Source: Lachnospiraceae bacterium UBA3645 (lineage in GTDB: Bacteria > Bacillota > Clostridia > Lachnospirales > Lachnospiraceae). Taken from it: a DNA stretch of 16,151 nucleotides. This document shows, in pieces, positions 1 to 13,564 of the stretch; the first letter of the stretch is position 1; every line of letters starts with the position of its first letter. The DNA lies in contig DFKM01000149.1 in the NCBI GenBank assembly GCA_002373555.1, forward strand, positions 1 to 16,151, written 5' to 3'. A model generated the notes under the pieces. That model was given only the letters and a program-made list of their open reading frames with translations, was not told the DNA's origin and searched no databases. A program made the translations under genes and the position numbers.

Positions 1-1294
1 TCAGGCTGTCCCAGCCGAAGCGCGCTCTGCCTTCCGTCAGCACCTTCCGGAAATTGGCGCCGCAGATGCTCGCGCCATGCATGACATCCGCGTCATACGG
101 TGCCCGGATATTTTTCAGCCGGAAATCCACCGGATCGATCCCGAGTTCCTCCGCGATCATGTTCCAGTGGGGTTCGAGCGCGATCGCTTCCTCCGACGAT
201 CCCCAGCTGCGGAAGCTTCCGTTCGCCGGCGTCGTAGTGCAGATGGAATAGCCTGTGAAACGGATATTCGGCAGTGCATATGTTTTCCCGAGCTTTCCTC
301 CTGCCGTGCGCAGATAGGAAGGACTGATCGTCTGGTACGCGCCCGCGTCCAGATTCATATGAATCCATACGCCGTGCACAGTGCCGTCCCGGTCCACCTT
401 GCTTTCCGTTCTGGTATCGAAATTGTGCCGCAGCAGCGTCCCCGTGATCTGCTCTTTCCTGGTGAAATGGCACATCACATCCGCTTTCAGATCATAAGCC
501 GCATAAGCGACCAGCGGCTCCAGCACCATTTCCTGCTTCACGCCGAAGGAACCGCCCATGATCGTCTTGATCACCCGGACTCTGTTGTAGGAAAGCCCCA
601 GGAGGTCCGCCACCGTGGAACGCACGCCGTAAGCTGTCTGCGTACCGGTCCATACGATCAGTTTTCCGGTCCCGCGGTCGTATTTCGCGCGGGACGCCTG
701 GGTCTCCATGCACATATGCGTCATCCGGCTGATATGCGATTCGCTGTGAAACATAAGCTCGCCGGCAGCGGCTTCATAATCTCCGTATTCCTGACAGTAC
801 GGCTCGTCCTTCGCGGGATAAATATTTCCGTTCCCGTTTTCATGCAGCTGCGGCGCGCATTCCTTCATCGTATCCTCCATGGTCAGGAGCAGCGGCAGCG
901 CTTCATATTCTACTTCGATCAGCCGGCAGGCCTGCTCCGCCGTCTCCGCATCTTCGGCAACGACAGCCGCTATCCGCTCTCCGTAGAACCTGACTTCCCG
1001 GTCAAAGAGACGTTCCTGGTTCTGGCTCCACTGAAGCTCATAAGAGGAAACGCGTCCGCGGTCGAAATACGTATCCGGCGTATTTTCGCAGGTATAGACC
1101 GCTTTGACGCCGGGCAGCCACGCCTTCGTCGTATCGATCCTCGTGATCCGACCATGGGCGATCGTACTGGGTTTGTATTTCAGATGCAGCATGCCGGGCG
1201 ACTGCATGTCCGAGCAGTACTCGACATGTCCCGTCACCTTCCCGTATCCGTGATCCGATCCCGTAGACCGGCCGATATAGCTGTATTCCTTCAT
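1..1294 (-). CDS. Xanthine dehydrogenase-type molybdopterin-binding subunit (partial, 3' end outside window)
   Basis: The first 431 residues of a molybdenum hydroxylase large subunit are visible; the stop codon lies left of the window. This family uses a molybdopterin cofactor to hydroxylate heteroaromatic rings or aldehydes with water as oxygen source, normally together with [2Fe-2S] and FAD subunits, neither of which is visible here. Seen: the N-terminal KVTG-x-x-x-Y pattern (about 19-26), a cofactor-contacting GTQ (217-219), GGSFGVKQE (247-255, family norm GGGFGGKE) and FRSWG (361-365, family norm FRGFG). The substrate-orienting Glu of xanthine dehydrogenase aligns with Gln254, so a purine substrate is doubtful. 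The start is supported by GGAGG at 1302-1306, seven bases upstream. It follows the lyase gene by 44 bp and is probably the fourth gene of the operon. Family membership is firm; substrate is unknown. Confidence 0.9.
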   Translation of the reverse strand, partial: MKEYSYIGRSTGSDHGYGKVTGHVEYCSDMQSPGMLHLKYKPSTIAHGRITRIDTTKAWLPGVKAVYTCENTPDTYFDRGRVSSYELQWSQNQERLFDREVRFYGERIAAVVAEDAETAEQACRLIEVEYEALPLLLTMEDTMKECAPQLHENGNGNIYPAKDEPYCQEYGDYEAAAGELMFHSESHISRMTHMCMETQASRAKYDRGTGKLIVWTGTQTAYGVRSTVADLLGLSYNRVRVIKTIMGGSFGVKQEMVLEPLVAYAAYDLKADVMCHFTRKEQITGTLLRHNFDTRTESKVDRDGTVHGVWIHMNLDAGAYQTISPSYLRTAGGKLGKTYALPNIRFTGYSICTTTPANGSFRSWGSSEEAIALEPHWNMIAEELGIDPVDFRLKNIRAPYDADVMHGASICGANFRKVLTEGRARFGWDSL

Positions 1295-1338: not shown

Positions 1339-2865
1339 TCACTGCAGTTTTCCCGTTTCCTCTTCCACGATACGAAGAAGTTCACCGTTGTGGATCAGGT
1401 TCCGCAGGAACTGGATATGGGGATAGAGATATTCATCCACCGTCATCAGCGGCACATCCTCCGCGATGCGGTCATAGATTTTCTTTGAGACGGACGAAAC
1501 CGGCGTGCTTTCATCCGCGAAGCTCTGGGCTTCATAATCGGAGAGCAGTTCGATTGCGAGAACATATTCCAGTTTCTCGCTGACGCTGTAGGCTTTCTTC
1601 GCGGCATTGTATCCCATCGCCACATAATCTTCCTGGTTCACGCAGGTCGGCGTGTTGTCCACGCTTGCTGGATGGGAAAGCACCCGCATGCTGTTGATCA
1701 GTCCGGCCTGGGTATACTGCGGGATCATCAGCCCGGAATTCAGGCCCGGATTCCGGATCATGAACGAAGGATAGCCGGAGTGGCCTTCATCAATCAGGCG
1801 GTTGTTGCGCCGCTCGGACATCTTCGCCAGCATCGTGGCCGCGATCGCACAGGAATCCATCTCGATGCCGACATAGGAGGAATCCGCATTGCACGCGGAG
1901 ATGACATCCTCATCCCCTTCCTCCGGCCAGATGATCGGATTGTCGCAGCAGGAATTCATTTCCGTTTCGATCGTGCGCTTGGCATCATAGAGCGTCTTCT
2001 TGGCAGCGCCGTGCAGCTGCGGGATGCAGCGCAGAGACAGTGCGTCCTGCAGATGGCTTCCTTCCGCAGCCTTGATCACGGCGGAATCCGCGAGGATCTT
2101 CCGTACATTTTCCGCGGAAGACGACTGCTCTTTATGCGGACGTACGGACATGACCCGGGGATCAAATGCGCGGATCAGACCTTTGCTGTTCTCCAGCGAC
2201 AATGCGCCGATGATGTCAGCGGATTTCGCGGACTCGATCATGTCATAGACTGCCAGCGCGCCCATCGCCGTAGGGGAAGTCGTGCCGGACACCAGCGCCA
2301 GGCCTTCCTTGGAAGCCAGGGTGATCGGGGACAGGCCGGCTCTCGCGAGCGCTTCCCGGCCGTCCAGCAGTTCGCCCTCGAACCAGGCTTTTCCTTCGCC
2401 GATCAGCACAAGCGCCATATGCGCTTCCGGGCTCAGATAACCGACTGAGCCGTCGCCCGGCGCCCAGGGGGTCAGATTGCGGTTCAGGAATTCGCGGTAC
2501 ATTTCCAGCACGATCAGCCGGACGCCGGAATACCCCTGTCCAAGATTCTGCAGCACCATGAGCATCGTACCTCTGACGACTTCCTCTGTGAGCGGCTGCC
2601 CGACGGAAACAGAGTGCGACAGCAGTATATTTCTCTGCAGCGCAGCGGCTTCCTCACTGCTGATCGTTTTGGTGCAGAGGGAACCGAAACCGGTCGTTAC
2701 ACCGTACATGGGTTTCTCTTCTGCGGTCCATCCGTCGACCAGGCTTCTGGCTTTCTTCACACGCGTCTCATATTCGTTTGAAAAATTGACCGGCACGTGG
2801 TATCTGACGACCTGTATAAAATCATCGAGTGAAAGTGTCTCTCCCAAAGTTACCCAGCTTTTCAT
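1339..2865 (-). CDS. Histidine/aromatic ammonia-lyase homologue with the MIO tripeptide deleted
   Basis: A 508-residue, full-length member of the HAL/PAL fold. Compared with Pseudomonas putida HAL it keeps the Tyr of YGVTTGFG (Tyr54), the His of LSH (His84), Arg279 in QDALSLR, the DNP motif (308-310) and the Glu of NQED (Glu412). At the active-site loop the family consensus GSVGASGDLAPLAHM reads GSVGYLSPEAHM (139-150), three residues shorter, removing exactly the Ala-Ser-Gly that cyclises to MIO. The catalytic Asn of LLNGT is Ser193, the catalytic Tyr before SLR is Leu276, and the Phe after GGN is Ala327. The frame is intact, so this is a repurposed enzyme rather than a decayed hutH. AAGGAGA precedes the start, 21 bp after the preceding lyase gene. 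It would act in the cytoplasm; the reaction is not predictable, but a lyase with a leaving group not needing MIO is plausible. Confidence 0.88.
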   Translation of the reverse strand: MKSWVTLGETLSLDDFIQVVRYHVPVNFSNEYETRVKKARSLVDGWTAEEKPMYGVTTGFGSLCTKTISSEEAAALQRNILLSHSVSVGQPLTEEVVRGTMLMVLQNLGQGYSGVRLIVLEMYREFLNRNLTPWAPGDGSVGYLSPEAHMALVLIGEGKAWFEGELLDGREALARAGLSPITLASKEGLALVSGTTSPTAMGALAVYDMIESAKSADIIGALSLENSKGLIRAFDPRVMSVRPHKEQSSSAENVRKILADSAVIKAAEGSHLQDALSLRCIPQLHGAAKKTLYDAKRTIETEMNSCCDNPIIWPEEGDEDVISACNADSSYVGIEMDSCAIAATMLAKMSERRNNRLIDEGHSGYPSFMIRNPGLNSGLMIPQYTQAGLINSMRVLSHPASVDNTPTCVNQEDYVAMGYNAAKKAYSVSEKLEYVLAIELLSDYEAQSFADESTPVSSVSKKIYDRIAEDVPLMTVDEYLYPHIQFLRNLIHNGELLRIVEEETGKLQ

Positions 2866-2886: not shown

Positions 2887-4410
2887 TCAGGCCTGCTGCG
2901 GGAGCAGCGCTGTCAGTTCATCGGAAATGATCAGTTCATAGGCAGCCCGGATCTCGGCGTGCATATTGCGGTCTTCATGGAGGAACGGGATCACCTTCCG
3001 GATGGTCTGATAGGCCTTTTCCGTATAGTGTCCAAGCTGCAGTTCCCCGAGTTTCTGTTTCCGCAGATCGACGGCCTGCGCCGCGTACAATGCTTCGATC
3101 CCGACCAGGTATCTCAGATTATCAATGATCCGGAGCGCTTTTTCCGCAGCCATGGGAAGATTTGTCCCCCGGTCCTCGATGCCGCCCTCCAGCTGATAAA
3201 AATCCATGCTGGACGGCTGTGCCAGATGCCTGTTCTCCGCATCCAAATTCGCGTAGGTATTCATGATCGTCGCATAGCCGAAGCCTGCGTCATCCCACGG
3301 CGCCAGATAGCGTGTCAGATGGGTAAACGACGGATCCGTCATTTTCAGCATTCTGAAAACGATCGTCTTTGACAGCACCGCCAGTGTTCCTGCCAGCATT
3401 TCCACGCCGGCAGCAAGGGTCGGCGATTCAAAGTTCGCTGTCACAGAGGTTTCCTTTTCCTCCAGCAGGATGCAGGGATTATCCGATGTCGAATTCAGCT
3501 GGATCGCCAGGAATCGCTTTACAAACTGCAGTGCGTCCTTTACCGCGCCGGCAACACAGAATCCGTCCCGGAAGGAAAGCGGATCCTGCAGCGCACGGTC
3601 TTTATCCGGCGCGTAGAGATAGCTCCCCGCCAGGAATTTTCTGCATTCCGCCGCCGCTTCCATCTGTCCCGGCAGTCCCCGCAGGCGGTTCACGGCTTCG
3701 CTCATCTGCTCGACATTCCCGTTCAGGCCTTCATAATCCAGACAGTACACCAGCTGGGACAGCGAAAGAAGCTTTTCCGCTTCCCATACCAGTTCTGCCG
3801 CCAGCGCCTCTCCCTGCGCATTCGAGAGGATGATCGTGTGCGCATCCTTCTGATCCATCACATACGGCGGGATCCCGCAGGCTTCCATTGCCTCTGCGGC
3901 ATTCATCACTTTTCCGTTCCAGCTGACATCTGCTTCCCCGATAAAGGCCATACCGATATGCGATAATGTCGCGATATCGTCATCTCCCATCGATCCCCGC
4001 GAAGGGACGTGCGGCGTGAGCCCGTGATTCAGGAATGCCTCGAACATTTCCGCCAGTTCATCCGTTGCGCAGGCTGCGCCGATAAGCATCTGGTTTAAGC
4101 GGATGCACATCATGGCACGGACCTGATGATCCGCGTGCCACGGATCCACCCCGAGGCAATGCGAGCGGATCAGCCGCTTGTTGTAAGAGACCAGCGCGCT
4201 TTCTTCCATCCTGCGGTCTTTATTCCAGCCGACGCCGCGGTTGAATCCGTAGATCGCTTTTCCGTCCTTTGCCAGACCGGTCATGATCCTGCGTCCTTCC
4301 GCCAGTCTGTCAAAGCATTCTTCCGCGATCGCGACTCTTCTTCCCCGGCAGGCTACATCATACAGTTCTTCCAGTTTAAGATCGTGTCCGTTTAAGATGA
4401 CCGGCTCCAT
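2887..4410 (-). CDS. Second, divergent MIO-less ammonia-lyase-fold protein
   Basis: A 507-residue HAL/PAL-fold protein, strongly diverged from its 508-residue neighbour. The loop that should carry Ala-Ser-Gly reads GSMGDDDIATLSH (139-151), so Asp-Asp replaces the MIO-forming residues. It retains Tyr54 (YGFNRG), His84 (RSH), Arg281 in QDPLSFR, the SDNP motif (309-312), the NF pair (326-327) and the Glu of IED (Glu412); the catalytic Tyr before the SFR motif is Leu278. An in-frame upstream ATG at 4473 exists, but the start at 4410 is preferred: GGAGG lies five bases before it, it avoids overlapping the upstream gene, and it makes both lyases the same length. The gap to the upstream dehydrogenase gene is 13 bp, indicating co-transcription and possibly coupled translation. 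HAL-family active sites are built from several subunits, so a mixed oligomer with the other lyase is possible but unproven. Confidence 0.85.
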   Translation of the reverse strand: MEPVILNGHDLKLEELYDVACRGRRVAIAEECFDRLAEGRRIMTGLAKDGKAIYGFNRGVGWNKDRRMEESALVSYNKRLIRSHCLGVDPWHADHQVRAMMCIRLNQMLIGAACATDELAEMFEAFLNHGLTPHVPSRGSMGDDDIATLSHIGMAFIGEADVSWNGKVMNAAEAMEACGIPPYVMDQKDAHTIILSNAQGEALAAELVWEAEKLLSLSQLVYCLDYEGLNGNVEQMSEAVNRLRGLPGQMEAAAECRKFLAGSYLYAPDKDRALQDPLSFRDGFCVAGAVKDALQFVKRFLAIQLNSTSDNPCILLEEKETSVTANFESPTLAAGVEMLAGTLAVLSKTIVFRMLKMTDPSFTHLTRYLAPWDDAGFGYATIMNTYANLDAENRHLAQPSSMDFYQLEGGIEDRGTNLPMAAEKALRIIDNLRYLVGIEALYAAQAVDLRKQKLGELQLGHYTEKAYQTIRKVIPFLHEDRNMHAEIRAAYELIISDELTALLPQQA

Positions 4411-4423
4411 ATGCGCCTCCGAT

Positions 4424-5323
4424 TCATTCTGCATCTTCCAGAAGATTTCCTCCGACCGTATCATATCCGTCATAGAAGCCGCTTCCGGATTTCATACCGA
4501 GTTTTCCTGCTTCCACCATTTCCAGAAGCTTCCGGGGCGGGCGGTCACGCTCTTCCCCGCTGGCTTCAAAATAAGACATTTCAATATTGTAAACGGTATC
4601 CAGGCCGATCAGATCCATCAGTTCGAACGGCCCGACCTTGCTTTCCCATTCCGTCTTCCAGCCGCGGTCAAATTCCGCCGGATCACAGTATCCGTTTGCC
4701 CAAAGCCACAGGCACTCTCTCTTGACGGCACGCCAGACCCGGTTTATGGAGTAGCCTTTATTCTCTTTTCTGGTGACGACCGGTTCAAACCCGAGGGTCC
4801 GGTAATGCGCCAGTGCCGCTTCCTTTGTTTCCTCCGAAGTCGACGGATTCCACATCATTTCCAGATAATCGTTCCGCACCGGATCATCATGATCCGTGGA
4901 GAACGTCTTCCTCTTTCTCTCCTCTGAACACTGCACATAAATATCGCTCATCAGCAGGGAGGAAGTATTGGAATTCAGATACGTCCGCTCCGGACAGACC
5001 CGGTCCAGTTCTCCGAACAGTTCCTGCTTCAGCGCAAGCTTCTCAGGCACGCATTCAATGACCAGATCCGCGTCTCCGCAGCAATCCGCAAGGGACGCCG
5101 CATAGGAGATCCGCTCAAGCAGCGCTTCTTTCTCAGCTTCCGTGATCCTGCCCTCCTTAACATAGAAATCCGCGAAACGCTCTGTTTTCTGTCTGCATAT
5201 TTCTCTGGAGCGTTCCGAGCGGCTGTAGCCGCAGACAGTCTTGCCATGCAGTGCGTTCCGGAACGCGATCATGGAACCCTGGATGCCGATGCCGACGACG
5301 GCGACTTTTCTGATTTGGTCCAT
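4424..5323 (-). CDS. 3-hydroxyacyl-CoA dehydrogenase-like NAD-dependent oxidoreductase
   Basis: A 299-residue protein with the architecture of L-3-hydroxyacyl-CoA dehydrogenase: an N-terminal Rossmann motif GIGIQG (11-16), VIECVPEK (88-95), SNTSSL (118-123), an INR with the catalytic-type Asn194, and the C-terminal signature KLGMKSGSGFYDG (274-286). The family reduces or oxidises 3-hydroxy groups with NAD; relatives include L-carnitine dehydrogenase and lambda-crystallin/L-gulonate dehydrogenase. The usual LHFFNP segment around the catalytic His is replaced by STDHDDPVRND (142-152). His145 and Glu155 can still be aligned with the catalytic pair, but a classical acyl-CoA substrate is uncertain. 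It is the first gene of the operon, with GGTGGGAG before its ATG, directly downstream of the repeat-bearing promoter. A role on a hydroxy-acid or betaine-like intermediate is inference. Confidence 0.83.
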   Translation of the reverse strand: MDQIRKVAVVGIGIQGSMIAFRNALHGKTVCGYSRSERSREICRQKTERFADFYVKEGRITEAEKEALLERISYAASLADCCGDADLVIECVPEKLALKQELFGELDRVCPERTYLNSNTSSLLMSDIYVQCSEERKRKTFSTDHDDPVRNDYLEMMWNPSTSEETKEAALAHYRTLGFEPVVTRKENKGYSINRVWRAVKRECLWLWANGYCDPAEFDRGWKTEWESKVGPFELMDLIGLDTVYNIEMSYFEASGEERDRPPRKLLEMVEAGKLGMKSGSGFYDGYDTVGGNLLEDAE

Positions 5324-5504: not shown

Positions 5505-8471
5505 TTGCCTACGATCTCAGTTCAGCTTCTGCATATGCCCGTGATCCGTCTCGACGGAAAAGTGATCACATTTCCGCTGAAAAAAGCCGATGCGCTTTTC
5601 TTCTACATGTGCACCGAGAAATCCGCCACGCGCACCCGTCTGGCCACGCTCCTCTGGGGAGGCGCCTCTGATGCTGCCGCGCGCAAAAATCTGCGGAACG
5701 CGCTTTATGCTATTAAGCAGGCATTTGGTTTTGATCCGTTTGAATCGCCGAAAAAACAGATCCTGAATCTGAACAGCAGCGTGATATTTCACATTGATAC
5801 CGACGATTTTCTGGAAACCGGTGATCTGCAGCTGTATCAGGATGTGTTTTTAAGCGGATTCTCCCTGAAAGATTCCTATGAATACGATGAATGGATGAAC
5901 AGTGTACGCTCCCGCATGGCAGATCATTATCTGCATTGCCTGTATCTCCGGTTTCAGCGGCTGCAGCCGGATGACATCACCGGCCGGGAAGACATCTTCC
6001 ACCGGTATACGTCCTCGGATCCGCTGGATGAGAGGATCTACATCCTCATGATGCAGACCTATCTGGAGAATTCCCAGCTGCTCAAAGGCGTGCGCTGCTA
6101 CGAAGATCTCCGTGCACTCCTTTCCGAAGAGCTCGCCATTTCGCCTTCGGTAGAGGCACAGGCTGTTTTTAACGAACTGAAGAAACAGCTGGAGCAGTCC
6201 AGCGGCACCTCCGGCATCGGCGACGGGGACGGAAGGCTGATCGGCAGGGACAGGGAAACTGCGGTCCTGCGCCGCTGCTGGCAGGATCTCGTGATGCGGA
6301 GAGCGGGGACGGTCTTCCTGTCCGGCGAAAAAGGCATCGGGAAAACATTCCTGTGCGACGCATTCCTGGACTCCCTTTCGGAAGAGAATGTGCTGATCCT
6401 CCGGGCGGACTGTCTGGAGCACGAAAAGCAGATCCCGCTGCGGTGCTGGTCTTCCATCCTCACGCAGGCAAGACAGTTTATGCAGTCCGAAAAGATCGAG
6501 GTCCCGGCCCGTTACCGCGAGGTCGTCCATTCCTTCTTCCCGACGCTGGATTCCCTGGGAAAAAGCGGGGCGGATCTTTCGGAGCTGCCGGCTTCCTACA
6601 GCTACCGCGCCGTCCGGAACGCACTTCTGCAGCTTCTGTCGGTGATCGCGGAAAAAATGCCTGTCATCCTGTACGTCAATGATCTGACGAACATGGATGA
6701 ACTGAGCGCAGACAGTTTCTCGACCCTGATCCGGAACAACCGCGGGAACTTCCTGATCCTGATCACCTGTCCTTCCCATATGGAACCGGGATGGGAAAAA
6801 TATGTCTCCGATCTGGTCCGCTTCCGGGGTGTGCAGAAGCTGATTCTGCAGCCGCTCGGCCGGGAGGAAGTAGAACGTTATCTCCTCCGGAAATTCCCGG
6901 AACAGACATTCCCGCCTGCACTGCTGGATTCCCTGATGAAGGAATGCCGGGGAAATCCCTTCTATCTGAATCTCATCGCCGGTCATCTGTACGAGGGCGC
7001 GGATGCGGAAACGATCGGAAACGCGGAACATATCATTCACGGCATCTTCGCGTCCCTGCCTGCCGGGGAAAGACGGCTGCTGGATCTGATCTCTGTCTTC
7101 CAGGACGGCGCGGCTGCCGAACCGCTTACGTTTATTACCGGGACCAACGCCATGGATATGATCTATACCCTTGACGATCTGATCGAACGCGGCCTGCTGA
7201 CCGAAGAAGCCCACGGTGCCGCTTCCCTGTTCCGGTTCCGGCACAACCTTCTGCTGGATTATATCCGCACCCATCTGTCACCGTCAAAAACAAGGCTGTA
7301 TCACAAGCGGATCGCGGAATACCTCCTGCAGAGCAGCCTTCCCCGTACGGGATCCTGGTACACGCAGATCATCTATCATTTTGAGGGCTGCGGAGCACCG
7401 GTCAAAAGCCTGTTCTACCGTATCCTGCAGCTGGAGGAGTTTGCCAAATACAATTACGATCTCTATCCGGTCCTTTCGCTTTCCGAAAAAGGATCCGGCG
7501 GATCCGCGCCTGCCGTTCTGCAGGAACTGTTCAGTCTGGAAAAACAGCTCTCCCGCTTTTATCACCTGTTTCCCGGAGAGATCCCCTATGAAGAAGCCGC
7601 GTGCCGTCTCTCCCTGATCATCGGGCGGATCGCCATCCAGCAGGGGGATTATGACGCCGGCCTGAGAGCGCTGAAGAGCCAGATCGAAGGCGGAACCTTT
7701 CTGTCCGGGAATCCCAGACTGGAACGGGCATATCACAGACAGCTGGTCTTTTACGGGATCCAGACATGGAACCTGCCGGTCATGGAGGCCGCGCTGGAGA
7801 AGTGCCTCGCCATTGACAGACAGCTTGGGGAGATCCACGAGACGGCGATCGACCGGCGGCTCAGAGGACTTTACTGCGGAATGAAGGGAGATCTGGACGA
7901 ATCCGACCAGCTGCTCCAGGCAGCCATTGAAGACTTCCAGTCTTCGGCGCTCACCCTGCAATCCTATACGCTGAATATCGCCGGCTGTTATAATTATCTC
8001 GGAGAAAATGCCCGGATCCGGAAAAACTATGATCAGTCGATCCTGTACTTCCGGAGAGCGCTGTCTCTGTGCCGCGAGAATGATCAGATGGAGAATCCGA
8101 TATTCTATGTCAATCTCGCCATCACCTATTATAATCTGGGCGATCTGAAGAATGCGGAAGCCTGCATCCGACAGAGCAGACAGCTGTACGACGCCTCCGA
8201 TGTGCAGATGGGCAGAAGCATCAGCCTGACAGGGGACGCCTATCTGCTGCATCATGCCGGTAAGGATCCCGAAGCACTCGCTGCGATGACGCTGGCAGCG
8301 GACTGCTGGCAGAAGCTCGGCTCTCCCAGAGACGCATTCTATTACTTCTATACAGCCTCCGTCCTGAAAAAAGAGGCCCCGGAAGTATTTGCTTCCCTGC
8401 TCCCGGAACCGTGGGAAAGCTACCGGGAGAAAGCAGACGCGACCACTAAAGAATATAGTACACTCAGATAA
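5505..8471 (+). CDS. SARP/AfsR-like transcriptional regulator (winged helix, BTAD, ATPase, TPR-like C-terminus)
   Basis: A 988-residue cytoplasmic regulator. Order: an OmpR-like winged-helix DNA-binding domain (about 5-95, including RTRLATLLWGG and a KNLRNALYAIKQ recognition-helix region), a bacterial transcriptional activation domain (about 98-235), a P-loop ATPase with Walker A GEKGIGKT (274-281) and a weak Walker B VILYVNDL (387-394), then helical sensor and TPR-like repeats (about 650-960). The start codon is TTG, with GGGGAGG seven bases upstream (5491-5497), which may keep expression low. Large SARPs of this type sense a signal through the ATPase/TPR part and activate a promoter bearing 11-bp-spaced direct repeats; just such repeats lie beside it in front of the divergent lyase operon. 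It is monocistronic and ends in a shared terminator. MalT-like STAND regulators were considered, but the DNA-binding domain is N-terminal and no LuxR-type helix-turn-helix is seen at the C-terminus. Confidence 0.9.
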   Translation: MPTISVQLLHMPVIRLDGKVITFPLKKADALFFYMCTEKSATRTRLATLLWGGASDAAARKNLRNALYAIKQAFGFDPFESPKKQILNLNSSVIFHIDTDDFLETGDLQLYQDVFLSGFSLKDSYEYDEWMNSVRSRMADHYLHCLYLRFQRLQPDDITGREDIFHRYTSSDPLDERIYILMMQTYLENSQLLKGVRCYEDLRALLSEELAISPSVEAQAVFNELKKQLEQSSGTSGIGDGDGRLIGRDRETAVLRRCWQDLVMRRAGTVFLSGEKGIGKTFLCDAFLDSLSEENVLILRADCLEHEKQIPLRCWSSILTQARQFMQSEKIEVPARYREVVHSFFPTLDSLGKSGADLSELPASYSYRAVRNALLQLLSVIAEKMPVILYVNDLTNMDELSADSFSTLIRNNRGNFLILITCPSHMEPGWEKYVSDLVRFRGVQKLILQPLGREEVERYLLRKFPEQTFPPALLDSLMKECRGNPFYLNLIAGHLYEGADAETIGNAEHIIHGIFASLPAGERRLLDLISVFQDGAAAEPLTFITGTNAMDMIYTLDDLIERGLLTEEAHGAASLFRFRHNLLLDYIRTHLSPSKTRLYHKRIAEYLLQSSLPRTGSWYTQIIYHFEGCGAPVKSLFYRILQLEEFAKYNYDLYPVLSLSEKGSGGSAPAVLQELFSLEKQLSRFYHLFPGEIPYEEAACRLSLIIGRIAIQQGDYDAGLRALKSQIEGGTFLSGNPRLERAYHRQLVFYGIQTWNLPVMEAALEKCLAIDRQLGEIHETAIDRRLRGLYCGMKGDLDESDQLLQAAIEDFQSSALTLQSYTLNIAGCYNYLGENARIRKNYDQSILYFRRALSLCRENDQMENPIFYVNLAITYYNLGDLKNAEACIRQSRQLYDASDVQMGRSISLTGDAYLLHHAGKDPEALAAMTLAADCWQKLGSPRDAFYYFYTASVLKKEAPEVFASLLPEPWESYREKADATTKEYSTLR

Positions 8472-8549: not shown

Positions 8550-9194
8550 TTAGAAGGTAAGAAAATCCTTTGTCAGTTCATCAACCGCAAATACTTCCTT
8601 CTCGCCTTCGAAAGCTTTCTTCACAACATCGTCGACTCTCGCCGCAAGCTTCGCAGTGAACTCTTCGTCCTTGATCGAAGAAAGATTGATGCGGCAGTTC
8701 AGCGCTGCACCAAGCACGGCGCTTCTTGCCATCATGCATCCGACCAGCGCGTCCGTAATGGCATTGGAATTTCCAAGCTTTACAGCTGTCTTTGCAAGCG
8801 GGATGACCCTGACAGCAGCTTCTGCTGCCGCGACGGGCACCAGCGCTGCGGCCTTCAGGCCTTCCTGCATCGCTGCGCGTCTTGCTGCCTTCTCTTCCTC
8901 CGTATTCTTCGGAAGCTTCAGCGCATCCATATACTGATTGAAGGATTCGGTATCCTTATCGACCGCTGCCAGCAGCTCTTCCTTGATCGCCATCGCTTCG
9001 TCGCGGACTTTGATCATGTCGGCTTCCGCAACGGCATACTTTTCACGGCCGATGGTCAGACGCGCTACCATTTCCTCCAGAGAGGCCGCAAGAGAACCGG
9101 CAAGTGCGGAAATGCTGCCGCCGCCAGGGGCGGGGGCGTCCGAGGATGTAAGCTGGGTGAAATCGGTTACGGTCATGTCGATTAATTTGCTCAT
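8550..9194 (-). CDS. fchA: Formimidoyltetrahydrofolate cyclodeaminase
   Basis: A 214-residue cyclodeaminase of the FchA/FTCD C-terminal family. It converts 5-formimino-tetrahydrofolate, made by the FtcD enzyme encoded just upstream, to 5,10-methenyl-tetrahydrofolate and ammonia, feeding histidine carbon into the one-carbon pool. Visible: the hallmark PAPGGGSISALAGSLAASL (21-39), the helical DKDTESFNQYM segment (about 79-89) and GNSNAITDALVG (about 141-152). Length is normal for the stand-alone bacterial enzyme. It is the last gene of the hut operon, 33 bp after ftcD, with a GGAAGGGG ribosome binding site and a small hairpin immediately in front. Transcription probably ends at the bidirectional terminator beyond its stop. 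Confidence 0.93.
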   Translation of the reverse strand: MSKLIDMTVTDFTQLTSSDAPAPGGGSISALAGSLAASLEEMVARLTIGREKYAVAEADMIKVRDEAMAIKEELLAAVDKDTESFNQYMDALKLPKNTEEEKAARRAAMQEGLKAAALVPVAAAEAAVRVIPLAKTAVKLGNSNAITDALVGCMMARSAVLGAALNCRINLSSIKDEEFTAKLAARVDDVVKKAFEGEKEVFAVDELTKDFLTF

Positions 9195-9227: not shown

Positions 9228-10124
9228 TCAGTCGTACAGTCTGGTCTCGAGGACCTGGTTGATGGAGAAGTCTTCGATGCCGAGGTAGTACTCAGCGCAG
9301 TCTACCAGCGCCTGCATGGGAACAAGGCCGATGACCTCGGAGCCGACGACATTCACGCCCCAGCGCTTCGCTTCCATCTTGACGGTCTCAAAGACGGTGT
9401 AGATCGCGGTATGGGTATAGTCGGTCAGGTTCATGGAGACCTGTGCGATATTTCTGTCCTCAAGCATGACGCCCATCGCCTTGCAGTATGCGAATCCGCC
9501 GCGGATATGACGTACTCTGTCAGCGATCTTCTTCGCGATCTCAAGGTTGGAGGTATCCAGGTTGATATTGTAGGCTACGAGCGGCATACGGGCGCCGATG
9601 GCTGTTACGCCGCCGGTCGGATGGATCGTATCGGGACCGAAATCCGGTTTCCACATGGGATCTTTCATCTTCTCGGCCATGCCCTCGAACTGGCCTTTGC
9701 GGATCTTCGCAAGATTCTCGCGATGGGGCGCCGTCGCGGATCTCTCATACAGGAAGAAAGGCTGTCCGAATTTCTCGGAAGCGATCTTCGCGACTTCCTT
9801 CGCAAGCGCGTCAGCTTCTTCGACGGTCGCGTTCTTCACGGGGATGAAAGGAACAACGTCGACGCAGCCCATTCTGGGGTGCTGGCCTTCATGCTTGGTC
9901 ATGTCGATCAGCTCGACAGCCTTGCCGATGGCTTCCACCATGGCATCGCGCAGCGGCTCCGGCTCGCCGATGACGGTGACAACACTTCTGTTATGGTCCT
10001 TGTCGGAGGAGTAGTCAAGAAGCTTTACGCCTTCTTTGCCGCGGAAGCTGTCCACGATCTTCTCGACCTTGTCCAGGTCTCTTCCTTCACTGAAATTGGG
10101 TACGCATTCGATGATTTTGTTCAT
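9228..10124 (-). CDS. ftcD: Glutamate formimidoyltransferase
   Basis: A 298-residue formiminotransferase, normal length for the single-domain bacterial enzyme. It transfers the formimino group of N-formimino-L-glutamate to tetrahydrofolate, releasing glutamate. Visible: the N-terminal IIECVPNFSEGRD (4-16), the substrate-binding segment DHNRSVVT (43-50), and QHPRMGCVDVVPF with His82, matching the catalytic His82 of mammalian FTCD. Its presence shows that this bacterium uses the tetrahydrofolate branch of histidine degradation rather than HutG or HutF. It lies third in the operon, 63 bp after hutI and 33 bp before fchA, with an AGGAGA ribosome binding site ahead of the ATG. Confidence 0.95.
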   Translation of the reverse strand: MNKIIECVPNFSEGRDLDKVEKIVDSFRGKEGVKLLDYSSDKDHNRSVVTVIGEPEPLRDAMVEAIGKAVELIDMTKHEGQHPRMGCVDVVPFIPVKNATVEEADALAKEVAKIASEKFGQPFFLYERSATAPHRENLAKIRKGQFEGMAEKMKDPMWKPDFGPDTIHPTGGVTAIGARMPLVAYNINLDTSNLEIAKKIADRVRHIRGGFAYCKAMGVMLEDRNIAQVSMNLTDYTHTAIYTVFETVKMEAKRWGVNVVGSEVIGLVPMQALVDCAEYYLGIEDFSINQVLETRLYD

Positions 10125-10187: not shown

Positions 10188-11429
10188 TTATCTGCTGACA
10201 ACGATGTCTCCGGCCTTGATCACGGTACCTGCCAGATTGTTTCCGAATCTGTACAGGATGAAATCAAGATTGTCTGCTTTCCAGATGACCAGATCAGCCT
10301 TCTTGCCGGGCTCGATGCTGCCGATGCTGTCCGCACGTTTGATCGCCGCAGCCGCATTCAGCGTCACAGCCGTCAGGACTTCTTCCGGCGTCAGTCTGTA
10401 TTTATAGCAGCCGAGGTTCATGGCGAACTGCAGGGAGAGGTTCGGACAGGAACCGGGGTTGAAGTCTGTCGCGATGGCGACCGGCACGCCGGCGTTCACC
10501 ATATCCCTTGCTCTTGCGAAACTCGCGTTCAGATAGAAGGAAGTCGCGGGCAGGCAGCAGGCGACGGTGCCGCCGCGGTGCATTGCCTCGATGCCTTCAT
10601 CGGTCGCTACGATCAGATGTTCGGCAGATACAGCGCCGATCTCCGCCGTCAGCTCCGTGCCGCCGATCGGATTGATCTCATCGGCGTGGATCTTCGGCGC
10701 CAGGCCGTATTTCCTGCCGGCTTCCAGGATCGTTCTGGATTCATCCGCGGTGAATACACCCGTTTCACAGAAAACATCGCAGAATTCCGCAAGGCCTTCC
10801 TCTGCCACTCTCGGAATCATCTCTTCGCACAGGATCCGGATGTATTCTTCGCGGTTCTCCTTATATTCTTCAGGAACAGCATGTGCTCCCAGGAATGTAG
10901 GTACAAGTTCAACAGGGTGCCGGCCCTGCAGGCTCTTGATGGCTCTCAGCTGCTTCAGCTCATGCTCTGTGGAAAGACCGTAGCCGCTCTTTGCTTCGCA
11001 GGTGGTCGTTCCCATCTCGAGCATCATGTCGAGCGCTTCCGCCGCCTTGTCAGCCAGCTCTTCCTCGCTCGCCGCACGCGTATTGCGTACGGTGGAGAGA
11101 ATGCCGCCGCCCTGGGCAAGGATGTCCAGATAAGCCACGCCCTTCAGCTTCAGAGCGAGCTCATGCTCACGCCATCCGCCGAAGATCAGGTGCGTATGCG
11201 CATCTACCAGTCCGGGGGTGACCAGTCTGCCGCCCGCGTCGATGCTGGAATCCGCATGCCTGTACTCTTCCGGGACTTCGCCTTCACCGACTGCGGCGAT
11301 CGTGCCGTCATCCGCGACAGCGATCCAGGCATCTTTGTAATATTTGATGTCGGCCTGATCCGGTCCGCAGTGCGCAGCGCTGCCCTGCGGTGTGGCAAGC
11401 TGTCCGATATTGTAAATAAGCTGTTTCAT
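10188..11429 (-). CDS. hutI: Imidazolonepropionase
   Basis: A 413-residue amidohydrolase that opens the ring of 4-imidazolone-5-propionate, the product of urocanate hydratase, to give N-formimino-L-glutamate. Metal and substrate residues are in place: DAHTH (His78, His80), KSGYGL (147-152), GAHAVP (His183), KIHADE (His248), SAEHL (His271) and ATDFNPG (Asp322). The reading frame extends upstream to an ATG at 11486, but the start at 11429 is chosen because the hutI homology begins there (MKQLIYNIG) and GGAAGGGG lies just ahead. It follows hutU by 65 bp, a gap holding two hairpins, and precedes ftcD by 63 bp. All catalytic positions I can check are intact, so activity is expected. Confidence 0.95.
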   Translation of the reverse strand: MKQLIYNIGQLATPQGSAAHCGPDQADIKYYKDAWIAVADDGTIAAVGEGEVPEEYRHADSSIDAGGRLVTPGLVDAHTHLIFGGWREHELALKLKGVAYLDILAQGGGILSTVRNTRAASEEELADKAAEALDMMLEMGTTTCEAKSGYGLSTEHELKQLRAIKSLQGRHPVELVPTFLGAHAVPEEYKENREEYIRILCEEMIPRVAEEGLAEFCDVFCETGVFTADESRTILEAGRKYGLAPKIHADEINPIGGTELTAEIGAVSAEHLIVATDEGIEAMHRGGTVACCLPATSFYLNASFARARDMVNAGVPVAIATDFNPGSCPNLSLQFAMNLGCYKYRLTPEEVLTAVTLNAAAAIKRADSIGSIEPGKKADLVIWKADNLDFILYRFGNNLAGTVIKAGDIVVSR

Positions 11430-11444
11430 ATAATCCCCTTCCGC

Positions 11445-11456
11445 CCCCTGACGGGG
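11445..11456 (-). promoter_or_regulatory. Small hairpin near the hutI ribosome binding site
   Basis: CCCC (11445-11448) pairs with GGGG (11453-11456) around a loop that is GUCA in the minus-strand RNA. It is two bases from the Shine-Dalgarno GGAAGGGG (complement of 11435-11442). The CCCC of the minus-strand RNA could alternatively pair with the GGGG of the Shine-Dalgarno itself. It is the counterpart of the hairpin ahead of fchA. Confidence 0.5.
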
Positions 11457-11459
11457 AAT

Positions 11460-11480
11460 CCCCCATCCGGAAGATGGGGG
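11460..11480 (-). other. Perfect 8-bp GC-rich hairpin in the hutU-hutI gap
   Basis: CCCCCATC (11460-11467) and GATGGGGG (11473-11480) form a perfect 8-bp stem with a 5-base loop, just after the hutU stop. No T tract follows on the minus strand, so a full terminator is unlikely; 3'-end protection or partial attenuation between hutU and hutI is possible. Confidence 0.6.
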
Positions 11481-11494
11481 AACCATTGCAGTTT

Positions 11495-13495
11495 TTATTC
11501 TCCGAGTACTTTCTTGACCATCTCGCGGTCTGCCACTACCGGTACGGTGATGTGGTCCGTTCCCTTGTAGAGTTCGTTGTACTCAAGAACTGTGGACATC
11601 GCGTTCTCGTTTCTTGCCCAGCTTCTTCTGGAAACACCGACCATGGTATCCCAAGGCATGGAGTTTCTCAGGATCTCGTCGACTCTTTCGCTTCCGTCAA
11701 GGACCATGCCGAAGCCGCCGTTGATGGATTTGCCGATGCCGACGCCGCCGCCGTTGTGCAGCGCTACCAGGCTCATGCCGCGTGCGCAGTTGCCGGCGAA
11801 GCACTGGGTCGCCATATCAGCCATGATATTGGAGCCGTCCTTGATATTGGAGGTCTCACGGAAAGGAGAATCCGTACCGCCGGTATCATGGTGGTCACGT
11901 CCCAGCATGACCGGTCCGATCTCTCCCTTACGTACCATGTCGTTGAACTTCAGAGCGATCTTCATACGGCCGAGGGCATCCTGATAGAGGATACGGCACT
12001 GTGTACCGACGACCATCTTGTTCTTCTTCGCGTCACGGACCCAGACCCAGTTGTCACGATCCTGATAACGTCTGTTGGGATCGATGCAGTCCATGGCAGC
12101 CTTGTCTGTCGCATCCAGATCTTCGGGCTTGCCGGACAGGCAGCACCATCTGAACGGGCCGTAGCCATAGTCGAACAGGCAGGGACCAAGGATATCTTCT
12201 ACGTAGGACGGGAAGATGAATCCGTCTGTCTCGTCATAACCGTTCTTACTGACTTCCTTCACACCGGCATCAAAGACAGCTTTTAAGAAGCTGTTGCCGT
12301 AATCGAAGAAGTAGGTTCCCCTGTCATGCATCTCGCAGATCAGCTCGAAATGATGCTTCAGAGTCTTGTCAACAAGCTTTCTGAACTTCTCGGGATCCTT
12401 GTCGAGCATCTCTGTTCTCTCTTCGAAGGTCAGGCCCTGCGGGCAGTAACCGCCGTCGTAAGGAACATGGCAGGAAGTCTGGTCGGAAAGCAGGTCGACA
12501 TGGACATCCTTCTTCAGAAGGAACTCCAGCAGATCAACGACATTGCCGTGATAGGCGATGGCGCAGGGTGCCTTCTCCGCAAGCTTCTCCTGTGCGATCT
12601 TCAGGGCTTCATCCAGCGAATCGGTATAGCAGCTGACCCAGCCCTGGGTGTATCTGGTCATGATACGGGAGATATCGACTTCGGCGATGATGGAAACCGC
12701 ACCCGCGATCTCGGCAGCCTTGCCCTGCGCACCGCTCATGCCGCCAAGTCCGGCGGTAACGAACAGACGTCCGGCCAGATCCTGATCCTGCGGGATGCCG
12801 AGTTCCAGACGGCCGGCGTTCAGCAGTGTGTTGAATGTTCCGTGTACGATACCCTGCGGTCCGATGTACATCCAGCCGCCGGCGGTCATCTGTCCGTAGT
12901 TGGCAACGCCCATGGCGGCCGCACGGTTGAAGCTCTCCTGATTGTCGAACATACCGGTCATCAGGCCGTTCGTGATGATGACTCTGGGGGATTTCTTATG
13001 GGAACGGAACAGTCCGAGCGGATGGCCGCTCATCACAACGAGCGTCTGCTCGTCTGTGAGGACTTCCAGATATTTCTTGATCAGGCGGTACTGCATCCAG
13101 TTCTGGCAGACCTGACCGGTCTCGCCGTAGGTGACAAGCTCGTAAGGATAAAGCGCTACGTCAAAGTCCAGGTTGTTGTCGATCATGACCTGGAAGGCTT
13201 TGCCTTCGATGCATTTTCCCTTGTATTCATCGATGGGCTTTCCGTGAAGGGCGCCTTCGGGACGGAAACGATAGCCGTAGATACGTCCATGCTCTTCGAG
13301 CTCCTCGGCAAATTCCTTTGCCATCTGCTCATGATGCTGCTTCGGGATATAGCGAAGCGCGTTCATGATCGCAGTCTCTTTGTCGGACTGGGACAGCTTG
13401 GATTCTCTGCGGGGCGCACGGCGGTATCCCTCTTCAAATTTGGGATACTCCGGGAGTTCGTCGTCAAGGCGGAGGAAATCAGCGTTGAGATTCAT
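11495..13495 (-). CDS. hutU: Urocanate hydratase (long form)
   Basis: A 666-residue urocanase that adds water to urocanate with tightly bound NAD acting as electrophile, giving 4-imidazolone-5-propionate. Visible: YGETGQVCQNW (123-133), SGHPLGLF (156-163), GQMTAGGWMYIGPQGIVHGT (201-220) and the NAD-binding TAGLGGMSGAQ (247-257). It is about 110 residues longer than the Pseudomonas putida type (about 557) and close in length to the animal UROC1 type; the extra length seems to include an N-terminal extension. An in-frame ATG at 13540 is rejected as start: GGAAGG lies eight bases before the ATG at 13495 and nothing comparable precedes the other. It is the first gene of the operon, behind a leader with a hairpin. 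No hutH accompanies it, so urocanate must come from elsewhere in the genome or from outside. Confidence 0.95.
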   Translation of the reverse strand: MNLNADFLRLDDELPEYPKFEEGYRRAPRRESKLSQSDKETAIMNALRYIPKQHHEQMAKEFAEELEEHGRIYGYRFRPEGALHGKPIDEYKGKCIEGKAFQVMIDNNLDFDVALYPYELVTYGETGQVCQNWMQYRLIKKYLEVLTDEQTLVVMSGHPLGLFRSHKKSPRVIITNGLMTGMFDNQESFNRAAAMGVANYGQMTAGGWMYIGPQGIVHGTFNTLLNAGRLELGIPQDQDLAGRLFVTAGLGGMSGAQGKAAEIAGAVSIIAEVDISRIMTRYTQGWVSCYTDSLDEALKIAQEKLAEKAPCAIAYHGNVVDLLEFLLKKDVHVDLLSDQTSCHVPYDGGYCPQGLTFEERTEMLDKDPEKFRKLVDKTLKHHFELICEMHDRGTYFFDYGNSFLKAVFDAGVKEVSKNGYDETDGFIFPSYVEDILGPCLFDYGYGPFRWCCLSGKPEDLDATDKAAMDCIDPNRRYQDRDNWVWVRDAKKNKMVVGTQCRILYQDALGRMKIALKFNDMVRKGEIGPVMLGRDHHDTGGTDSPFRETSNIKDGSNIMADMATQCFAGNCARGMSLVALHNGGGVGIGKSINGGFGMVLDGSERVDEILRNSMPWDTMVGVSRRSWARNENAMSTVLEYNELYKGTDHITVPVVADREMVKKVLGE

Positions 13496-13529
13496 TATGA
13501 GTACCTTCCTTTCGTGGTATATTGGTGAC

Positions 13530-13564
13530 TGGGGCGTCAAACAGCAGACTGCTCGGCTGCCCCA
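13530..13564 (-). promoter_or_regulatory. Hairpin in the 5' leader of the hut operon
   Basis: TGGGGC (13530-13535) pairs with GCCCCA (13559-13564), enclosing a second small stem AGCA/TGCT (13543-13546 with 13550-13553). It lies between the predicted hutU promoter and ribosome binding site. It matches no riboswitch class I recognise and has no T tract, so a transcript-stability or protein-binding role is a guess. Confidence 0.4.

Follow-up and report, generated by a model that had tools for sequence, protein, structure and literature searches.

Introduction

The histidine, phenylalanine and tyrosine ammonia-lyases (HAL, PAL and TAL) depend for ammonia elimination on the electrophilic group 4-methylideneimidazole-5-one (MIO), which arises from an Ala-Ser-Gly tripeptide in the enzyme's own chain, and in HAL the residues D145 and F329 help it to form. 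In the thiourocanate pathways (curated hydratase models NF058530 and NF058531), a betaine lyase acts first and a hydratase of the urocanase family follows. Ergothionase, for which structures from Treponema denticola have been solved (PDB 6s7j/6s7q), is described in a 2026 survey of trimethylamine sources as an enzyme without MIO (PMC13405746).

The present analysis concerns a lyase gene at positions 1339–2865 (minus strand) of a 16,151-nucleotide stretch of Lachnospiraceae bacterium UBA3645, hereafter the window, which is one contig in full (DFKM01000149.1, our C27) from a genome that is 63% complete and 1.96 Mb in size. Like ergothionase, the encoded protein of 508 residues has the PF00221 fold and no MIO tripeptide. 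From sequence comparison we infer its substrate, its leaving group and the roles of its residues, and on that footing we consider it probable that the protein is an MIO-free hercynine (histidine betaine, an imidazole betaine) trimethylamine-lyase that supplies trans-urocanate to the Hut pathway. Of the parts of this proposal, betaine-lyase chemistry has good inferential support and hercynine is the likely substrate; the enzyme probably works in the manner of ergothionase, yet it lies outside the ergothionase clade.

A Lyase Fold That Has Lost the MIO Tripeptide

The protein scores 536.6 bits against PF00221, above the Pfam gathering score, and has the fold of the aromatic amino acid lyase superfamily; its AlphaFold2 model has a mean pLDDT of 94.5. 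The solved structures closest to it are histidine ammonia-lyases (312 bits to 7tqr), with ergothionase at 180 bits. An identity as a plain HAL was nevertheless rejected, since the protein falls below both curated hutH cut-offs (TIGR01225, 505.7 against 539.15 bits; NF006871, 518.4 against 524), and the initial annotation was thus right to warn that an automated hutH label would be wrong.

The loop that normally forms MIO, GSVGASGDLAPLAHM, is replaced by GSVGYLSPEAHM at residues 139–150, encoded at 2416–2451 on the minus strand; the initial annotation had recognized this loop but placed it slightly off, at 2421–2465. Aligned with this genome's canonical HAL (GSLGASGDLCPLAHM), the Ala-Ser-Gly is gone, the next Asp has become Tyr and the flanks align on both sides, so that the exact loss of the tripeptide claimed at the outset is borne out. 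A sequencing or assembly error that had removed nine bases was ruled out as the cause, because a scan of GTDB genome contigs, in which 98 relatives were found and the best 80 kept as loci, returned the GSVGYL loop in the best relative of all 80 fetched loci.

In comparison with the HutH enzymes of Pseudomonas putida (1b8f) and Thermoplasma acidophilum (7tqr), the protein lacks Ala-Ser-Gly and carries D145 changed to Tyr, N195S, Y280L, F329A and H330D; here and below, residue numbers of this kind follow P. putida HAL and were mapped by motif. The PDB titles include the HAL mutants F329A, F329G and D145A, and both D145 and F329 are lost here. The equivalents of HAL Y53, H83, R283, M382 and E414 are all present as Y54, H84, R279, M380 and E412. 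Motif positions agree with the substitutions Ser193, Leu276 and Ala327 listed earlier, and motif positions together with alignment columns agree with the retention of Tyr54, His84, Arg279 and Glu412; what that list missed was D328, in the place of HAL H330, a substitution that proved important.

The genome's canonical HAL has every catalytic residue that was checked, and beside it lies a fourth lyase, whose loop is altered to GSLGSSDLAPLAHL. Of the four enzymes, one thus retains the MIO tripeptide, while the other three have it lost or altered. That the window protein might act as a histidine ammonia-lyase in the absence of MIO is highly improbable: known enzymes of the HAL, PAL and TAL types need MIO to eliminate ammonia, the tripeptide is missing together with N195, Y280 and F329, a canonical Ala-Ser-Gly enzyme already exists in the same genome, and members of the clade have transporters of the BCCT family as neighbours, as described below.

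An Active Site Shared in Part with Ergothionase

The fetched loci yielded 149 distinct lyases, of which 105 have the GSVGYL loop of the target clade, 22 have Ala-Ser-Gly (ASG), 15 are of the ergothionase type, four have SSG or CSG, two have SSD and one is unclassified; the residue tallies that follow refer to the first five of these classes. Tyr53, Arg283 and Gln277 are invariant in all 105 target-clade proteins, position 414 is Glu in 104 of them (with one gap), and position 83 is His in 101, with two Asp and two Cys.

The positions that bear on the comparison with HAL and ergothionase fall into two groups. At the first, the clade resembles ergothionase. Position 280 (L276, codon 2038–2040, minus strand) is Leu in 99 of the 105 target-clade proteins (five Tyr, one Met) and in 15/15 ergothionase-type proteins, against 0/22 of the ASG enzymes. 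Position 330 (D328, encoded together with A327, the counterpart of F329, at 1882–1887, minus strand) is acidic in both MIO-free types, being Asp in 105/105 and Glu in 15/15, while elsewhere it is His in 20 of the 22 ASG proteins (Tyr in the other two) and in all six SSD and SSG/CSG proteins. Ser at position 195 is found in 81/105 and 11/15, respectively. At the second, the two types part: Met382 (M380, codon 1726–1728, minus strand) is retained from HAL in all 105 target-clade proteins and in none of the 15 ergothionase-type proteins (eight Gly, three Ser, two Ala, one Cys, one Gln), which for their part keep Phe329 in 14 of 15 cases. Their loop is one residue shorter than that of HAL and keeps the Asp, unlike the three-residue deletion seen here. 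With the sides of the pocket assigned as in HAL, this pattern suggests that the two MIO-free clades agree at the predicted trimethylammonium site and diverge on the imidazole side, where a sulfur has to be accommodated in ergothionase.

A beta-elimination on the aromatic amino acid lyase fold would then turn hercynine into trans-urocanate and trimethylamine, and because trimethylammonium departs unaided, the electrophilic MIO of ordinary HAL would be dispensable. Tyr54 would act as the base and Arg279 would grip the carboxylate; the imidazole would be held by His84, Met380 and Glu412, and the quaternary ammonium would occupy the room left by the loss of MIO, Phe329 and Tyr280, with the new Asp328 contributing. 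A BCCT partner would import the betaine, and the urocanate would pass to HutU and then to HutI and FtcD, all of which are encoded in the window. The earlier suggestion of a lyase rebuilt for a better leaving group fits such a scheme, judged from the ergothionase homologue that lies beside the gene, the ties to BCCT transporters and the residues kept on the imidazole side; that neighbour, the Hut genes of the window and a separate clade defined by the loop all go beyond what the initial annotation had described.

The neighbour, an ergothionase homologue with the loop GSMGDDDIATLSHI, lies at 2887–4410 on the minus strand and has T. denticola ergothionase as its best match among solved structures (546 bits, E 7e-163); its reading frame is open to 4473, and the 507-residue database protein P0121 would begin at 4410. 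Two further explanations involve this neighbour. The lyase could be another trimethylamine lyase, acting on a betaine that carries sulfur, such as ergothioneine, S-methyl-ergothioneine or ergothioneine sulfonate, as the adjoining ergothionase gene, the shared absence of MIO and the shared Y280L and acid at 330 would allow; we regard this as unlikely, given that Met382 is universal in the clade and replaced in the ergothionase type by a small residue in 14 proteins and by Gln in one, and that the target clade occurs in one genome (G010) where ergothionase-type genes are absent. Alternatively, the lyase could be a dead paralogue or a partner subunit of the neighbouring ergothionase, since the two genes are adjacent on one strand and catalytic residues are changed. 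This has very little probability in view of the strong conservation (Y54, R279 and E412 are invariant in a 51-row alignment) and of the same genome G010, where the clade occurs with no ergothionase-type gene for it to partner.

A Separate and Patchily Distributed Clade

The enzyme stands apart from ergothionase, with which it shares 28% identity over 493 aligned residues. The initial annotation had raised the question of whether MIO-less members of PF00221 form a conserved clade, and in a tree of 77 rows (loop columns removed, quick search, no bootstrap) the GSVGY rows do: all 34 lie on one side of a single branch (Shimodaira-Hasegawa-like approximate likelihood ratio test, SH-aLRT, 96), whereas all 15 ergothionase-type rows split off on another (SH-aLRT 100). 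Placement of the target in the ergothionase clade was rejected on the strength of these separate branches. The SSD pair is nested inside the HALs (SH-aLRT 100), and three switches of MIO state are required to explain the tree if ASG, SSG and CSG are all counted as MIO; the program issued a warning about the long branches of ergothionase and CSG, which meet.

Further changes around the loop were seen elsewhere in the family. A HAL-like gene stands directly beside canonical hutH in L138 (4525–6069; contig C81 of the window's own genome) and in L136 (6510–8117), with a loop, GSLGSSDLAPLAHL or GSLGSSDLSPLAHL, that is one residue short and lacks ASG while all other checked catalytic residues are intact, which amounts to a further, separate switch of MIO state within the HALs. 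The lyases of Deltaproteobacterium Smac51 (L120, 4893–6578; L121, 4953–6578) combine a Cys-Ser-Gly tripeptide with Leu280 and Ser329, and a BCCT gene lies on the opposite strand 0.4 kb from one of them and another 1.5 kb from the other.

The 80 loci come mostly from Bacillota, together with Acinetobacter, two Deltaproteobacteria records, a Spirochaetes metagenome-assembled genome (MAG) and Fusobacterium naviforme. The distribution is patchy: in a sample of 196 genomes from the window's class, close members, defined by a line of >500 bits that would miss more distant ones, were found in 3 (the window's own genome, G099 and G173). The nearest relative, L005, is a Lachnospiraceae MAG from goat jejunum in which a lyase of 92% identity is followed by a gene for a xanthine dehydrogenase-like (XDH-like) protein, and its HutU, FtcD and HutI are 97%, 99.7% and 89% identical to those of the window. 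Histidine betaine has been reported among sheep rumen metabolites (PMC11839056), which suits the ruminant origin of this relative. Broken or split lyase genes were also noticed in two genomes (L133, 4833–7696; L082, 183–1761).

Transporters Beside the Lyase

With direct adjacency defined as the same strand and a gap of less than 400 bp, the lyase genes that have a BCCT betaine transporter as neighbour number 54 of 104 in the target clade, 5 of 16 in the ergothionase type and 0 of 26 among those of the MIO type (ASG, SSG, CSG); within 2.3 kb, the counts are 66/104, 6/16 and 2/26. The Fisher p value for 54/104 against 0/26 is 1.5e-7, which is overstated in that related genes are treated as independent. 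The opposite holds for NhaC-type transporters, which directly adjoin 2/104 target-clade genes and 7/26 MIO-type genes (Fisher p 1.7e-4, likewise overstated by kinship). Counted by locus, 46 of the 80 have a BCCT gene, 11 an SSF symporter and none has both. The nearest solved structures to a representative BCCT protein (from L012) are a trimethylamine transporter and BetP.

Other neighbours recur as well. A regulator cluster is present in 45/80 loci, the member tested being a sigma-54 activator, and in L076 a gene of the trimethylamine methyltransferase family (MTTB) lies directly upstream of a clade member, with a gene of the same cluster downstream of the lyase in L075. A protein of about 180 residues accompanies the SSF symporter near MIO-free lyases in L007, L052, L054, L058, L079–L081 and L083; neither of the two members scanned matched a Pfam family.

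Another reading, somewhat less likely still than a sulfur-bearing betaine, keeps the MIO-free mechanism and changes the imidazole substrate or the leaving group, for example to ring-methylated hercynine, dimethylated histidine or imidazole lactate. Subclades do vary at positions 195, 280 and 329, and several loci carry tandem pairs of clade members (L008, L020, L023, L027, L033, L044, L055), so that the tandem copies and the subclades that keep Tyr280 may differ in just this way. The BCCT association, on the other hand, points to quaternary ammonium compounds, and hydroxide or a free amine is a poor leaving group where MIO is absent.

Links to Histidine Utilization

A hercynine lyase would be a second way into the Hut pathway, and in some loci the gene order is consistent with such a role. 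The window itself encodes, all on the minus strand, urocanate hydratase HutU (11,495–13,540; TIGR01228, 455.1 bits, cut-off 375), imidazolonepropionase HutI (10,188–11,486; TIGR01224, 486.6 bits, cut-off 298.15), glutamate formimidoyltransferase FtcD (9228–10,124; TIGR02024, 432.9 bits, cut-off 221.25) and a protein matching the profile of the formiminotransferase-cyclodeaminase family (8550–9194; PF04961). Both hutU and hutI are found near the lyase in L005, L009, L052, L054, L058 and L067–L069. In three Sporomusa loci (L052, L054, L058), hutU-hutI-ftcD-cyclodeaminase is preceded on its own strand by the lyase, which in L058 is the immediate upstream gene.

In Acinetobacter celticus (L069), the gene order reads hutC, a 194-residue protein that is HutD-like by eye (no model matched), hutU, hutI, hutG, a glutamate dehydrogenase-like gene, the lyase, a BCCT-family gene and a 410-residue protein for which no match was found at E 1e-20. 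Its HutU scores 1018.8 bits against the cut-off of 375. A HAL-like hutH was not found in this genome, where the one other PF00221 match has Gln at 414, although absence from a draft assembly is weak evidence; the same caution applies to Natroniella acetigena (G229), in which a urocanase is present and PF00221 yields nothing above 552 bits. A search for published histidine-growth data on A. celticus found none, the one paper listed giving tables for other Acinetobacter.

The hydratases also bear on what the lyase might release. The general scheme of the thiourocanate and S-methyl-thiourocanate pathways is the same as the one proposed here; unlike the hydratases of those pathways, the enzymes of the window, L058 and L069 pass the hutU cut-off and fail both thio-urocanate models (for the window, NF058530, 314.1 against 930 bits, and NF058531, 371.4 against 880), which speaks against the sulfur-bearing betaine considered above.

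Genes in the Rest of the Window

One neighbour speaks for that sulfur-bearing betaine, namely the XDH-like gene, which is seen beside ergothionase-type genes and, in the window and L005, next to the target as well. In the window, it encodes a molybdenum hydroxylase at 8–1294 on the minus strand, is 83% identical over 429 residues to L005 11,541–13,832, and runs past the contig end. Genes of this kind, noted in the window (8–1294) and in L017, L061, L065, L132 and L133, adjoin 5 of 16 ergothionase-type genes within 400 bp, the family assignment of the cluster being based on one member, L017, and the hydroxylase is a candidate for the step after thiourocanate. The aconitase-X swivel domain (PF01989) is carried by several ergothionase homologues as well (P0125, P0170, P0184, P0191), and an AcnX gene follows the MIO-free lyase in L076, so that this domain family is met with both MIO-free types. 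The remaining genes are a 3-hydroxyacyl-CoA dehydrogenase-like protein recognized by profile matches (4424–5323, minus strand) and a large regulator-like protein with matches to BTAD, AAA and TPR domains (5505–8471, plus strand).

Weighing the Hercynine Proposal

A number of observations weigh against hercynine as the substrate, or at least reduce what the evidence above can carry. As for the active site, the roles assigned to Y53, H83, M382 and E414 are carried over from HAL work; Leu280 is also present in two of the four SSG/CSG proteins, which are possible MIO formers, so Y280L alone is no proof; and, because five clade members retain N195, Y280 and F329, the substrates of the clade may be several. 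In the approximately unbiased (AU) test, a tree that joins the GSVGY and ergothionase types was not rejected (p 0.352). Since a single origin with ergothionase is thus allowed, the residues common to both MIO-free clades may be inherited rather than convergent, and the idea that the shared N195S and Y280L prove convergence was dropped.

The genomic context is likewise uneven. No BCCT gene was found within the window, 23 of the 80 loci have neither BCCT nor SSF (some of them on short contigs), the BCCT protein of A. celticus falls under the NCBIfam BCCT subfamily cut-offs, and HutU stands beside the lyase in 11/80 loci, most being without it. In favour of a link to the Hut pathway, 41 of 42 isolate genomes that carry the clade have a urocanase, compared with 23 of the 196 genomes in the class sample; this sample, however, is not matched to those isolates, and clade genomes with no detectable urocanase do occur (G217 among the isolates and G099 in the class sample). 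Moreover, 39 of the 42 isolates carry, by score, a canonical-HAL-like gene (at least 598 bits), and the urocanase link is therefore confounded and does not point to the target by itself.

Significance

As to precedent, literature searches aimed at a hercynine lyase returned no papers, and among the matches listed for broader ones no title named such an enzyme, most subscription journals lying outside this coverage. The trimethylamine-source survey used one Burkholderia ergothionase as the BLAST query, and its authors note that divergent homologues are unaccounted for (PMC13405746); the target clade would probably be among the divergent homologues missed there.

Taken more broadly, the evidence inclines us, with modest confidence, to the view that hercynine is fed into histidine utilization by a widespread but patchy and so far unnamed family of MIO-free lyases separate from ergothionase, whose members work alongside BCCT or SSF transporters, have taken the place of hutH altogether in some hut operons (as in A. 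celticus), have diversified into subclades for related betaines, and are a gut and rumen source of trimethylamine at present annotated as histidine ammonia-lyase. Were this true, clade entries named "HAL/PAL/TAL family ammonia-lyase", such as P0036 of Clostridium symbiosum (loop GSVGYLAPEAHM), would need to be renamed, as would P0058, a putative member that is named histidine ammonia-lyase and is 69% identical to the target. The family would offer a natural comparison of which residues change once the leaving group makes MIO unnecessary, and it would give the Hut pathway a second entry point. Finally, it would constitute a new route by which fungal or dietary betaine is converted to trimethylamine and urocanate, and with it a trimethylamine source that has gone unrecognized.
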